A stretch of 64,000 bases of DNA from Kiloniella laminariae (GTDB taxonomy: Bacteria > Pseudomonadota > Alphaproteobacteria > Kiloniellales > Kiloniellaceae): positions 434,001 to 498,000 of the forward strand of contig NZ_JAPWGY010000003.1 in NCBI RefSeq assembly GCF_027214005.1. Reading direction: 5' to 3'. Under the pieces are notes generated by a model. That model saw only the letters and a program-made list of their open reading frames with translations, did not search any database and had not been told where the DNA came from. Made by a program: the position numbers and the translations under genes. Shown here in pieces: positions 34,894 to 39,823 of the stretch. Numbering within the stretch: position 1 is the first letter of the stretch; the number at the start of each line of letters is the position of its first letter.

Positions 34894-35916
34894 TCAGGAT
34901 TCTCCAGGCACACCCTTGGAGGTGGAGTATTGGAAATGGAGTTCCTGTTCCGGGAAGACCAGACTATGGATGGCATGTGCCGCCATGGCAGCTTCGGAAA
35001 AACCACAGAGAATAAGCTTGAGCTTGTTCTTGTAGGTTGCGATATCACCAATGGCGAAGATCCCCTGTTGCCGGGTTTCGCAGGTGGTTGGATCAACCAG
35101 AATATGCCCACGCTCCAGCGTAAACCCCCAATCGGCAATCGGTCCAAGGTCAGTTGCCAGGCCATAAAAGGGGAGAAGGACATCGGTTTCCAGCGTCCGC
35201 TCGTTGCCTTCCAGATCCTTGACAATAACGGCATCGAGTTGACCGTTTTCCCCCGTGAGGCCATGGAGTTGATAGGGAACAATCATCTCGATCTCGCCGC
35301 TGTCTGCAAGCGCCCGCATGCGGGCAACTGATTCGGGGGCGGCCCGGAACTTGTCCCGACGGTGAACAACATAAACTTTTTTGGCAACCTGCGGCAGGGA
35401 CATGGCCCAGTCGACAGCACTGTCTCCGCCTCCGGCGATGACAACCGATTTATCCCTGAAATCCTCACGGCGTTTGACCAGATAGAAAACCGATTTGCCT
35501 TCATAGCTCTCAAGATTGGCCAAAGGGGGGCGGTTGGGACCAAAAGCCCCGGCACCAGCAGCCAGGATAACGGCTTTGCTTGTGATGCTGTGGCCTTTGC
35601 TGGTGGTGACTTTCCAGCCCAGGTCAGCCGTGCGCTCCAGCGCTGTGACCTGCTGGTCAAGATGATAAACCGGGTCAAAGGGGGCGGCCTGCTGTTCGAG
35701 CTGTTCAATCAGTTCTGCCGCAGCGACGGAAGGAAAGCCGGGGATGTCGTAGATCGGCTTTTCCGGATAGAGCGCGGTGCATTGTCCTCCGGTCGCCTCC
35801 AGGGCATCGACAACATGGGTTCTCATGCCCAGCATACCACATTGGAAGACCGCAAAAAGACCGGTTGGTCCTGCACCGATGATGGTTACATCAGTCTGAT
35901 GGTTCTTTTCACTCAC
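34894..35916 (-). CDS. Ferredoxin--NADP+ reductase, thioredoxin-reductase-like type
   Basis: 340 residues. The FAD motif is VTIIGAGPTGLFAVFQCGM at the N-terminus. The NADP-binding domain (about 150-260) has SVVIAGGGDSAVDWAMSLP and VVHRRDKFRAAPESV. The C-terminal FAD motif is GIFAIGDIATY. The redox CxxC of thioredoxin reductase is missing, as expected for the ferredoxin/flavodoxin reductase type first described in Bacillus (YumC) and green sulfur bacteria. It moves electrons between NADPH and ferredoxin. Confidence 0.92.
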   Translation of the reverse strand: MSEKNHQTDVTIIGAGPTGLFAVFQCGMLGMRTHVVDALEATGGQCTALYPEKPIYDIPGFPSVAAAELIEQLEQQAAPFDPVYHLDQQVTALERTADLGWKVTTSKGHSITSKAVILAAGAGAFGPNRPPLANLESYEGKSVFYLVKRREDFRDKSVVIAGGGDSAVDWAMSLPQVAKKVYVVHRRDKFRAAPESVARMRALADSGEIEMIVPYQLHGLTGENGQLDAVIVKDLEGNERTLETDVLLPFYGLATDLGPIADWGFTLERGHILVDPTTCETRQQGIFAIGDIATYKNKLKLILCGFSEAAMAAHAIHSLVFPEQELHFQYSTSKGVPGES

Positions 35917-36383
35917 GCAGTCTTTCCTTTTATTTTCCTTGTCCCTTGGGCAGAAGGCCAGCCGCTTTCAGATGAACTGGGTCTGGAATAGGGTCGAAAT
36001 CCGGATCAATTTCGATTCTGCCCCAAGAGTCTATGCAGGAGCATTGTAATTAAGGACCTGGGTGTTTCAATAGCCGAAAAGCGGCAGAATTGTGCTTTTT
36101 GTCTTCAATGCCAGGCTTTTATCGGAAATAGTTTGTATTCTTTCCACCCGAAGAAGGGAGAACTGCGGGTGTTTTCTGGGGAGCAGTCTGTGTCAGAGGC
36201 GGTGGGTGCAGGGGATGGTTTGCCCCAAATCTGGCCCTGTCATGGACAATTCCCGGACAAAATACTGCCACAGTCACTCTCCACATTGCTTAATACGACA
36301 AGATACTTACTATTTGATTCGCTTGAGCGATATGACCGGGCGCCCCTGAGGGGATGCAGCCCCGCAACAAAATGAGGAATGGC
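35917..36383. other. Divergent region between ferredoxin reductase and chvI
   Basis: 467 bp with no supported ORF. It contains TCGAAAT (35994-36000) and ATTTCGA (36009-36015), a 7-bp inverted repeat with an 8-bp spacer about 80 bp upstream of the reductase gene, a possible operator. pckA, which often sits beside chvI in related bacteria, is not here. Confidence 0.45.
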
Positions 36384-37082
36384 ATGGAAGGCAATATTGT
36401 TCTCGTGGATGACGACCGCAATATTTTGACATCGGTCTCTATCGCACTTGAGGCGGAAGGTTTTAAGGTACGGACCTATACCGATGGCTCGGAAGCTTTG
36501 CGCGGCATGTCTTCCAGCCCTGCCGATCTGGCTGTGCTGGATATCAAGATGCCCCGTATGGATGGCATGGAGCTTTTGCGTCGCATCCGTGAAGGCAATC
36601 CGATCCCGGTGATTTTTCTCACCTCAAAGGATGACGAGATTGACGAGGTACTGGGATTGCGAATGGGCGCGGATGATTACATTACCAAACCCTTTTCCCA
36701 GCGCCTGCTGGTAGAGCGTATCCGGGCCTTGCTGCGGCGGGAAAAAGCCAAGCAGGATGCGAGCGAAGGAAAAGAAGGCGACAAACCGATCCAACGCGGA
36801 CATATGATGCTTGATGCATCCCGGCATCTCTGTACCTGGAAAGGCAAACATATCAACCTTACCGTGACCGAGTTTCTGATTTTGAAAGCCCTGGCGCAAC
36901 GCCCGGGACACGTCAAAAACCGGGATCAGCTGATGGATGCGGCCTATGGTGATGCGGTGTATGTCGATGATCGCACGATAGATAGTCACATCAAGCGGTT
37001 GCGTAAAAAATTCAAGGAAAGCGATGACGATTTTGGACAGATCGAAACCCTGTATGGTGTCGGTTATCGCTACCGTGACTGA
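36384..37082 (+). CDS. chvI: ChvI-type OmpR-family response regulator
   Basis: 232 residues from ATG 36384 ([18 protein letters not shown]), with GAGGA 7 nt upstream. The receiver domain (1-120) has acidic pocket VDDD, phospho-acceptor Asp53 ([11 protein letters not shown]), LTSKDDE and KPF. The C-terminal winged helix (about 135-232) has [31 protein letters not shown] and [14 protein letters not shown]...GVGYRY. It is the partner of ChvG, and the pair governs envelope, acid and host-interaction responses in many alphaproteobacteria. Confidence 0.93.
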
Positions 37083-37153
37083 GCATTTTTTGTCACATCT
37101 CCAGACTTGCAAAGCCAACTGTTTGTGGCTCCATTCTGCAGTGGGAGAAACGG

Positions 37154-37654
37154 GTGAAATCTGACAGGATATTTCTGGAGAAGTTGCTCTTTATCCTGGC
37201 CATGTCTCTGGTGGTTTTTGGTTTGATACGGCTGTTTTCTCCAGTTGGAGAGCCTTTGCAAAATCAGGGAGTGTCAGTCGTGGGGGCTTCGTCATTGGCA
37301 GTGGCTCGGGGGCCCGAGTTGCCTGCCTATGATATTATCCTTTTTAATGATGCAGGGCAGGAGGGAGGCCTTCTTGACCGCTCACTGTCCGGTCTTCAGC
37401 AAGAAGCTCTCCGTTTAGGATTACATCAGAACGGTATTGAAACTGCCTGTGATCTGCAGGGAAAACGCCCTGACAAGGTACTCTGGGGGCAACTTGCAGG
37501 GCTGGAGCATCCCGATAGCCTGTCAGTCTATGTTGCGGAAAAACTGATTTATCTGGGAAATTATCTCGAGGCCTGGAAAATCCAGGCACAGGGCGGAACT
37601 GTGAACTGCTATGTCCTGGATGAGGCAACAACCCGGTTGTTGGCGGAACTGTAA
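37154..37654 (+). CDS. Uncharacterised membrane-anchored protein between chvI and chvG
   Basis: 166 residues from GTG 37154, with GGGAG upstream. One N-terminal membrane helix (about 9-29: EKLLFILAMSLVVFGLIRLF) is followed by a 135-residue soluble part, probably periplasmic. It contains YDIILFNDAGQEGGLLDRSL, two cysteines (Cys98 in ETACDLQGKRP and one in GTVNCYVLDEATT) and AEKLIYLGNYLEAW. I do not recognise a family. Placement between a response regulator and its sensor kinase suggests an accessory regulator of ChvG, which is inference. It is not part of the usual chvI-chvG layout as I know it. Confidence 0.75.
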   Translation: MKSDRIFLEKLLFILAMSLVVFGLIRLFSPVGEPLQNQGVSVVGASSLAVARGPELPAYDIILFNDAGQEGGLLDRSLSGLQQEALRLGLHQNGIETACDLQGKRPDKVLWGQLAGLEHPDSLSVYVAEKLIYLGNYLEAWKIQAQGGTVNCYVLDEATTRLLAEL

Positions 37655-37696
37655 AAAGTATAAATTTAAAAGGTGAACGTGTGATGGTCGGGGGCA

Positions 37697-39355
37697 GTGG
37701 TGGCAGATCAAAGCCATAAACAGCAGGTAGAGATTGCCCAGGCGGTAAAGAAACACCGCAAGGGGCGCAAGCGTGGCTGGCGATCTTCCCTGACACGGAA
37801 GATCCTGCTGATTAACTCACTTGTTCTGTTAATCCCGGTCGTCGGTTTGATGCACCTGGAACAATATCGTCTCAGCCTGATTGCCTCGGAACTGGATGCG
37901 CTCTCGATTCAGGGACGGGCCTTTTCGCTTAGTCTGGGGTCGACGGCGGTTGTCGCCAGCAAGGTCGGAGACGAAAAGCTGGTCCCCGAGCTGACTAGGA
38001 GTCTGATGCGGGGCATGCTGAACGATATTGGGGTGCGCGCCAGAATTTTTGCAACAAGCGGTGAGATGCTGGCGGACAGCCTTTATCTGGCGGGCGTTGG
38101 TGGCCCGGTGGAGATTGGCGAATTACCCCCCCCGGGCGGCATGAGTCTGGATGATAAGATCATCGAATATTATGAAAAAATCATCACCTGGTTACCTGGC
38201 CGAGATGACTGGCCGCTCTATCGTGAATCCCAAAGACAGAGCGCTGAGGATTACAAGGAAGTCCTGATAGCCATGAAAGGGGAGCCCGCAGGAATGGTCA
38301 GGGCAGATACCTCTGGGCGATTGGTCTTGTCCATGGCGGTGCCGATCCAGCGCTATCGACAGGTACTGGGAACGCTGATGCTGTCGAAAGATGCGCAGGT
38401 TGTGACTGAGGCTGTGCAGGCCAGAAGGCGGGATATTCTGGCTGTCTGCGGAATTGCACTGGGAGTTACTGTCATGTTGTCACTCTATCTGGCCGGAACG
38501 ATCGGGCGTCCGTTACGTCGGCTGGCAGATGCGGCTGACTTTGTCCGGTATGGCAAGGGGCGGCAATACGAGATTCCGGATTTTACCCGTCGCCGGGATG
38601 AAATCGGAGATCTTTCCGGCGCTCTTCGTGCGATGACGGAGGCGCTCTGGGCCCGCATGGATGCCATCGAGGGATTTGCTGCGGATGTTGCTCATGAAAT
38701 CAAAAACCCCCTGACGTCTCTCAGGTCTGCTGTCGAGACGGTGGCGCGGGTTTCAGACCCGGAGCAACAAAAGCGCCTTATGGCAATTATTCTGGATGAT
38801 GTGCAGAGACTGGATCGTCTGATCAGCGATATTTCGGATGCTTCGCGCCTGGATGCCGAACTGTCACGGGCGAATATGGAAGATGTCGATGTGCGTAAGC
38901 TGCTGGAAACCCTGGTGGAAATACAGCGGGTTGGTCTGGATGGCAAAGAGGGGCCAACCTTTGAGTTGCGGCTGGATGAGGACGCGGATCTTTGTGTCCC
39001 GGGACTTGAAGGGCGCTTGGGGCAGGTTTTACGCAATCTGATGAGTAATGCTCAAACCTTTAGCCCAACAGACGGGAAAATCACCCTGATTGCCAGAAGA
39101 GAAGAGAACGAGGTGATGATCACGGTAGAAGATGAGGGTCCGGGGATTATTCCCGGGAAACTGGAAGCCATTTTCGACCGTTTTTATACCGAACGCCCCG
39201 AAGGGGAGAAGTTTGGTACCCATTCTGGTCTTGGCCTGAGTATCTCGAAGCAGATTATTGAAGCCCACAATGGTACAATAACAGCGGAAAACCGGGAGGG
39301 TGCAGGTGGCAAGATCCGTGGAGCCCGTTTTATCATTACCCTGCCAGTGGGATAG
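37697..39355 (+). CDS. chvG: ChvG-type sensor histidine kinase
   Basis: 552 residues from GTG 37697 (a second GTG follows at once). A basic N-tail precedes TM1 (about 34-50: ILLINSLVLLIPVVGLM). The periplasmic sensor domain runs to about 245 and TM2 is at about 248-270 (LAVCGIALGVTVMLSLYLAGTI). HAMP is followed by the DHp helix with FAADVAHEIKNPLTSL, phospho-acceptor His333. The HATPase has N-box NLMSNAQTFSP, DEGPGI and HSGLGLSISKQII. It ends 3 bp before hprK, so it is cotranscribed with the phosphotransfer genes. Confidence 0.93.
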   Translation: MVADQSHKQQVEIAQAVKKHRKGRKRGWRSSLTRKILLINSLVLLIPVVGLMHLEQYRLSLIASELDALSIQGRAFSLSLGSTAVVASKVGDEKLVPELTRSLMRGMLNDIGVRARIFATSGEMLADSLYLAGVGGPVEIGELPPPGGMSLDDKIIEYYEKIITWLPGRDDWPLYRESQRQSAEDYKEVLIAMKGEPAGMVRADTSGRLVLSMAVPIQRYRQVLGTLMLSKDAQVVTEAVQARRRDILAVCGIALGVTVMLSLYLAGTIGRPLRRLADAADFVRYGKGRQYEIPDFTRRRDEIGDLSGALRAMTEALWARMDAIEGFAADVAHEIKNPLTSLRSAVETVARVSDPEQQKRLMAIILDDVQRLDRLISDISDASRLDAELSRANMEDVDVRKLLETLVEIQRVGLDGKEGPTFELRLDEDADLCVPGLEGRLGQVLRNLMSNAQTFSPTDGKITLIARREENEVMITVEDEGPGIIPGKLEAIFDRFYTERPEGEKFGTHSGLGLSISKQIIEAHNGTITAENREGAGGKIRGARFIITLPVG

Positions 39356-39358
39356 GAT

Positions 39359-39823
39359 ATGGCCCCTCAGCAGTTGATTCACGCAACCTGTCTGGCGTTT
39401 GAAGCGGTGGGTGATGTTGCCGGACAAAAGATCGGAGTCTTGTTGTGTGGCCCTTCGGGCAGCGGCAAATCAGATCTGGCGCTTCGGGCATTGCATGAAG
39501 GTTGTGCCATGCTGGTTTCAGATGACCAGACATCGCTGCTTGTCAGGGATGAGCAGCTACTCGCCAGTCCTCCGCTGACTATTGCCGGGCGCCTTGAAGT
39601 CCGGGGTCTCGGGCTGGTTTCTTTTCCTTTTTGCAAGGAAATCCCTGTTAAGCTTGTCGTGGATCTGGTCCCTCAGGGCGGAGTTGAGCGTCTGCCCGAA
39701 CCGGCGTGGATCGATATTCTGGGTATTTCTCTGCCGAAGATGTCGCTCTATAGCTTTGAAGCTTCGGCCCTTGCCAAGCTGGTACTTGCCATGACCCGAC
39801 CCGACAGTGATATAGATAGGTAA
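39359..39823 (+). CDS. hprK: HPr kinase/phosphorylase, short alphaproteobacterial form
   Basis: 154 residues, corresponding only to the C-terminal catalytic domain of the Gram-positive enzyme (about 310 residues). This truncation is normal in alphaproteobacteria. Walker A is CGPSGSGKSDLALRAL with Lys37. The HPrK signature follows as RGLGLVSFP, then LVVDLVP. It phosphorylates HPr on the regulatory serine and links carbon or phosphorylation state to neighbouring regulators. ATG 39359 follows the chvG stop by 3 bp. Confidence 0.93.
   Translation: MAPQQLIHATCLAFEAVGDVAGQKIGVLLCGPSGSGKSDLALRALHEGCAMLVSDDQTSLLVRDEQLLASPPLTIAGRLEVRGLGLVSFPFCKEIPVKLVVDLVPQGGVERLPEPAWIDILGISLPKMSLYSFEASALAKLVLAMTRPDSDIDR

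Follow-up and report, generated by a model that had tools for sequence, protein, structure and literature searches.

A genus-restricted membrane protein encoded between chvI and chvG in Kiloniella: a candidate accessory of the ChvG-ChvI system

The DNA analysed here, referred to as the window, is a stretch of 64,000 nucleotides from Kiloniella laminariae. On its forward strand a response regulator gene and the gene of its sensor kinase are separated by a gene which we call X. The features are:

36354..37082, + strand: chvI, OmpR-type response regulator (Pfam PF00072, PF00486)
37154..37654, + strand: gene X, 166 codons, GTG start, in the slot between chvI and chvG
37310..37651, + strand: C-terminal domain (X residues 53-166), conserved, 47 invariant positions in 114 columns
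37700..39355, + strand: chvG, sensor histidine kinase, start codon taken from the genus comparison
39359..39823, + strand: hprK-like gene for a short HPr kinase, the next gene after chvG (PF07475 above cut-off)

Read from the window sequence, 71 bp lie between the stop of chvI and the start of X, and 45 bp between the end of X and the GTG of chvG at 37700. This bears out the earlier note, which had described a 166-residue protein encoded between a response regulator and its kinase on the same strand with short gaps. The open reading frame listed for chvG is 37697-39355; the start which is kept throughout Kiloniella is the GTG at 37700. chvI has three closely spaced in-frame ATG starts at 36354, 36372 and 36384 (window 36354-36386).

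The kinase is laid out as TM1, a Stimulus_sens_1 periplasmic domain, TM2, HAMP and the kinase core, and the corresponding Pfam domains are PF13755 (Sensor_TM1), PF13756 (Stimulus_sens_1), PF00672 (HAMP), PF00512 (HisKA) and PF02518 (HATPase_c). Its best NCBIfam model is NF058527, ChvG, with 467 bits, a score under the 740-bit cut-off of this Caulobacter-specific equivalog model. Downstream follow further genes of a PTS cluster: by NCBIfam the HprK-like protein (52 bits against TIGR00679) and an EIIA-like protein are below cut-off; RapZ, HPr and EI are above. A ChvG-ChvI system is recognised by an OmpR-type regulator, a kinase with Sensor_TM1, Stimulus_sens_1 and HAMP domains, and hprK-like and PTS genes, and exactly this set is present. 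The kinase domains, the ChvG model as best match and the hprK/PTS neighbours together identify the pair as chvI-chvG in its usual setting. A scan of the + strand from 35900 to 37900 found no consensus promoter-like or terminator-like site, which is weak evidence for a shared transcript because a + strand promoter upstream of chvI was equally missed. The Caulobacter ChvI motif TTGC-N3-GCAA, with up to one mismatch, occurs 42 times in the window compared to 41.9 expected occurrences; the tally is thus uninformative on ChvI sites.

X consists of a hydrophobic helix (about residues 11-29), a variable linker (about 30-52) and the conserved domain (53-166). The single N-terminal helix claimed in the earlier note is found in all nine X proteins of the genus as the single hydrophobic segment in a hydropathy scan with 19-residue windows: the best window begins at residue 7 or 11 with a mean hydropathy of 2.24-2.64, and windows beginning beyond residue 30 reach 0.97 at most. 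Two to three K/R residues precede the helix, and zero to three are located in the following 15 residues in the nine members, a charge pattern which weakly favours a topology with the N-terminus inside and the C-terminus outside. Each of the nine proteins has exactly two cysteines, Cys99 and Cys152, and both are invariant. This suggests a disulfide, and because of this putative disulfide we tentatively place the domain in the periplasm. Since the cluster also contains genes for HprK-like, RapZ, EIIA-like, HPr and EI proteins, one might alternatively assign to X a role in the cytoplasm or in connection with the PTS, on behalf of hprK and the PTS genes behind it instead of ChvG. We regard this as very improbable; the membrane helix and the paired cysteines point to the envelope.

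In a group of five Kiloniella genomes a hairpin (AAGAGC...GCTCTT) is located directly before the start of X:

L005 and L009, 1447-1497, + strand: hairpin before X
L006, 1987-2037, - strand: hairpin before X
L007 and L008, 1993-2043, - strand: hairpin before X

None of its 12 predicted pairs has changed on both sides, i.e., covariation support for the hairpin is absent.

The earlier note recognised no family for X, and the searches agree: the nine members have no convincing match in Pfam, NCBIfam, PHROGs or PDB sequences, and the X of the window has no Pfam match at E up to 1. Stray matches were judged to be due to chance. They comprise, in Pfam and each in one of nine members, DUF3185 (E 0.0096), EutC (0.2) and DUF1129 (0.21); in NCBIfam, again each in one member, EutC (0.053) and signal peptidase I (0.18); in PHROGs, phrog_3045 (0.031, one of nine) and phrog_14286 (0.061, two of nine); and among PDB sequences 9zdm (E 0.21) and two others above 1. 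A duplication of the ChvG sensor domain was likewise considered as a source of X and rejected (hhalign probability 0.2%, E 0.25-0.28 over 12-26 columns).

The structure prediction which the earlier note had suggested as a check was informative in part. The full-length model is poor (mean pLDDT 53), and a fold search with it was empty. For the domain alone the best of five models is of moderate confidence, with a mean pLDDT of 72.1 and a pTM of 0.68 (the other four reach mean pLDDTs of 49.0-59.5), and it predicts the order beta-alpha-beta-beta-beta-beta-alpha-beta-alpha. Its fold matches are weak. The best are two clostridial structures, 4r7r (VIA Z 7.6, rmsd 3.0, 99 aligned residues) and 4q0y (Z 7.1, rmsd 3.8, 99 aligned), followed in the VIA list by a row with Z 2.6; a Z under 8 may reflect merely a common arrangement, and families outside the VIA list escape this comparison. 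Foldseek against the PDB also gives 4r7r as best match, with E 0.42 and a probability of 0.33. Identity of X to both structures is 11-13%, and the best match in a viral structure library has E 0.94. We take 4r7r and 4q0y to belong to DUF4883 (PF16224), presumably clostridial lipoproteins. PF16224 is absent among the Pfam matches of the nine X members at E up to 5 and from the genome of the window at E up to 10 (in the controls 2 of 14 matched, none over cut-off); a literature search for DUF4883 found no paper.

Within the genus the picture is uniform. The frame of X is intact and the order chvI, X, chvG on a single strand is preserved in all nine Kiloniella genomes, with 68-93 bp between chvI and X; the operon-like placement pointed out in the earlier note is thus a property of the genus. 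The homologue in Kiloniella laminariae DSM 19542 is 82% identical. In Nei-Gojobori counts over four groupings of pairs, the wider of which approach saturation at synonymous sites, dN/dS is 0.044-0.114 for residues 53-166 and 0.112-0.563 for residues 1-52 (three groupings, the fourth being saturated); chvI has values of 0.008-0.030, and the part of chvG used has 0.020-0.044. By these counts X is under purifying selection which is strongest in the domain. Intact frames, conservation and dN/dS together lead to the conclusion that X is a real protein of which the C-terminal domain is the constrained part. That X is a chance open reading frame or a decaying insert devoid of function, as its confinement to one genus and the weakly constrained linker might suggest, is hardly credible in view of nine intact frames out of nine, 47 invariant columns among 114 and the low dN/dS of the domain.

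X evolves faster than ChvG. Mean pairwise identity in the nine genomes is 0.62 for X compared to 0.92 for ChvG residues 1-420; identity of chvI inside the genus is 93-100%. From pair to pair the identity of X follows that of ChvG (correlation 0.93), as expected under common descent. In the trees of both X and chvG the window is grouped with K. laminariae (support 100 each), and the five-genome group is recovered with supports of 100 and 99, respectively. Two further genomes have a weak placement in the X tree (77), and their position there is not the one they take in the chvG tree. The shared strong groups are consistent with one entry of X followed by common descent. The GC content of X (0.43-0.53) is close to that of chvI (0.45-0.53) in the nine genomes, so there is no sign of a recent foreign origin.

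Beyond the genus X was not found. A protein search matched 10 of 58 relatives at E <=0.01; nine matches are from Kiloniella (E <=2e-40), and the tenth, in G056, is a stray: it has E 0.006 in the single-sequence search and no match with the nine-member profile, and was dismissed as a homologue. The profile detected X in nine of 61 genomes of the order, all Kiloniella (0 of 52 others), and in two of 385 genomes of a class sample, both Kiloniella (0 of 383 others). In a phylum sample, which like the other two overlaps with the rest, three of 398 genomes matched, i.e., the genome of the window and two in which weak pieces cover just 41 and 51 columns of the profile. The E-values of these pieces, 0.002 and 0.003 on a one-genome basis, are at the level expected given so many genomes, and the pieces were rejected as distant homologues. 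A contig search suited to close relatives matched X in K. laminariae only, and X was not found in the plasmids, phages or viral contigs searched. In the genomes searched X is, as judged by these profiles, restricted to the genus.

A different approach is to inspect the slot itself. chvI is present in 56 of the 58 relatives, and 47 of these genomes are outside Kiloniella. Four of the 47 loci were left out for want of a usable chvG downstream; two of them are at contig ends, the others are G034 and G027. In G034 (L141) chvI has no chvG match on its strand within the 8 kb read. In G027 (L142) chvI is followed by a chvG fragment match only, and the chvI match contains an in-frame TAG. The gap was estimated as the distance from chvI to the point in chvG which would correspond to residue 1 of the window's ChvG. 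It is -38 to 353 bp in the 43 order loci outside Kiloniella, none of which has a gene in the slot, and 602-629 bp in the nine Kiloniella genomes. The class sample for this purpose comprised 142 genomes, 86 with chvI and 88 with chvG at the limits used, and yielded 82 pairs adjacent on one strand. Estimates above 340 bp were obtained only for G176 (592 bp) and for the genome of the window (620 bp). The slot is empty in 81 of these 82 pairs; the 82nd is the window's own.

Twenty loci with larger or partly matched gaps were read individually: seven from the order, which are all those with an estimate above 200 bp, and 13 further ones from the class sample including G176 (G025, one of the seven, is also in the class sample). 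In 20 of 20 the open chvG frame reaches upstream to a point no more than 253 bp from the chvI stop, and other + strand frames contained entirely in the gap are 93 aa long at most. In the remaining pairs no more than 278 bp separate chvI from the first chvG residue matched, too little for a 501-bp gene. In G176 (L090 1724-2358, reverse complement) the chvG frame reaches about 127 codons upstream of the matched part; its long gap is possibly a long cytoplasmic N-terminus of ChvG. Thus, of the conservation in relatives which the earlier note had looked to, the part concerning Kiloniella stands (nine of nine), and the part concerning more distant relatives does not. The occupied slot is a Kiloniella feature in all loci measured.

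What, then, might X do? We put forward that X is a Kiloniella-specific, membrane-tethered periplasmic accessory, i.e., a third component, of ChvG-ChvI, and assign to this reading a probability of slightly under one half (about 0.48). X, ChvI and ChvG would be made from one transcript. X would be anchored in the inner membrane through its one helix and expose a small, probably disulfide-bonded domain to the periplasm, where it may contact the sensor domain of ChvG and/or its first membrane helix. Such contacts would shift the ease with which ChvG is switched on; most likely X would keep ChvG inactive until a signal arrives from the envelope or from the redox state. Least certain in this proposal are whether the effect is positive or negative and which signal is involved. 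The reading is favoured because the slot between the two genes, the tether, the paired cysteines and the fast evolution beside a slow kinase all fit. That X tunes ChvG, as the earlier note had surmised from gene placement, is plausible. It speaks against the proposal that outside Kiloniella ChvG does without a slot gene in the loci measured, and that within Kiloniella the ChvG sensor is nearly constant although X changes fast.

The main rival follows from the same facts. X may be a passenger, an envelope protein which does not touch ChvG and is a protective output of the operon rather than an input; we consider this possible, if somewhat doubtful. A membrane-anchored domain with conserved cysteines suits any envelope role, and a nearly invariant ChvG sensor next to a variable X is what a passenger would lead one to expect. 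Furthermore, the Caulobacter chvIG-hprK operon is described as being itself induced by osmotic shock and by cell-wall antibiotics (PMC9731502), and a passenger gene inside such an operon would therefore be induced, too. A passenger, however, has no need of a position between both signalling genes instead of after them, and this position is kept in nine of nine genomes.

Does ChvG itself carry marks of X? In a post hoc, unplanned comparison of 45 ChvG sequences (9 Kiloniella and 36 others) residues fixed specifically in Kiloniella occupy 11 of 186 periplasmic and 3 of 219 cytoplasmic positions (Fisher p 0.014). Control clade g4, which is without X, has 10 of 186 and 5 of 219 (p 0.12), control clade g2 has 2 of 186 and 1 of 219 (p 0.60); with Kiloniella excluded from the comparison the counts are 9 vs 7 for g4 and 3 vs 1 for g2. 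Because g4 shows similar counts this signal is not special to Kiloniella. TM1 of ChvG has a likeness to outsiders of 0.64 in Kiloniella compared to 0.73-0.78 in seven other clades, making Kiloniella the most divergent of the eight clades compared, which have 2-9 members each. Inside the genus sensor identity is 0.90-0.97 over three periplasmic stretches. As a mark of X the divergence of the periplasmic part and TM1, both examined post hoc, is suggestive at most.

The changed TM1 can also be read in another way. X might be a connector under other controls which relays a second signal to ChvG via its helix and activates it, as SafA and UgtL do with PhoQ. We judge this unlikely. Connectors of the SafA/UgtL type are usually encoded away from their kinase, and the promoter scan, weak as it is, found no consensus promoter-like + strand site before X. 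On the other hand, ChvG TM1 is the most changed in Kiloniella among the eight clades, and the description of SafA (PMC8534201) would agree with a single-pass protein whose periplasmic part is C-terminal.

The proposed accessory would be an undescribed family in a known kind of arrangement; X is a real, new and genus-restricted membrane protein. ExoR is secreted and carries Sel1 repeats. In Rhizobiales it is reported to hold the ExoS/ChvG kinase off, and it is less conserved than ExoS, with 44.6% compared to 61.4% (PMC4550343). X resembles it as a proposed extracytoplasmic partner of the same kinase and, like ExoR, outpaces this kinase in evolution; X differs in lacking a Sel1 match, in being membrane-anchored and in being encoded inside the operon. 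MgrB, as described, represses PhoQ and responds to redox through two periplasmic cysteines (PMC8534201). It shares with X a membrane helix, two conserved cysteines and, should the predicted topology of X be right, a periplasmic part; by description, however, it has fewer than 50 residues (PMC8534201) and acts on another sensor, whereas X, at 166 residues, is predicted to contain a folded domain. In Sinorhizobium meliloti a lipoprotein and a protease are described to act on the ExoS-ChvI pathway, and SyrA is mentioned as a further influence on the same system from the envelope (PMC10659215), which is also the role proposed for X. X may work like ExoR or MgrB, a comparison which implies kinship to neither. 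In the titles and abstract openings of the literature on ChvG accessories and on Kiloniella two-component systems there is no paper on gene X.

The earlier note had also considered a periplasmic inhibitor pathway of ChvG as the target of X; of a pathway of the ExoR type the NCBIfam model gives no hint in the relatives searched. The NCBIfam ExoR model matched none of the 58 relatives at E 1e-20, with a weak control, as no control genome matched and in the class sample 1 of 142 did so, below cut-off; ExoR is likely absent from the relatives. The nine X proteins match neither the ExoR model NF045484 nor Sel1 at E up to 5. The genome of the window has 54 Sel1 matches in 12 open frames; among the seven frames scanned the best score is 111 bits, compared to the 450-bit ExoR cut-off. 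The NCBIfam ExoR model matches Sel1 proteins. Some Sel1 protein of this genome could serve in ExoR's stead. Four Sel1-repeat proteins whose N-termini resemble signal sequences are encoded in a row in G000 on contig C11 at about 724-730 kb (L132 857-7393). Three of the four are close in N-terminal sequence, and they match the NCBIfam MerG and ExoR models below cut-off.

One may go one step further and propose that X is a home-grown replacement of ExoR, a tethered, disulfide-gated domain from a hitherto undescribed family which would have originated in the Kiloniella ancestor, moved into the chvI-chvG operon and come to gate ChvG according to the redox or envelope state of the periplasm. This more specific version of the accessory reading is rather unlikely. 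On accessories of ChvG in general, PMC4550343 considers it likely that the systems outside Rhizobiales have no third partner or employ proteins different from ExoR. Caulobacter is without ExoR, yet its acid response via ChvGI seems conserved (PMC9731502).

ChvG-ChvI is a conserved alphaproteobacterial envelope-stress switch, and its activating signal is described as still unknown (PMC9731502). With X as its accessory, there would be a concrete case on which to test the idea of non-ExoR third partners outside Rhizobiales, in a genus whose type strain is cultured. If X is a passenger it still documents how a new family entered, a single time, an operon which, in the loci measured, is otherwise without a slot gene. 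Should the replacement of ExoR be true, it would show a conserved stress sensor recruiting a new third component.
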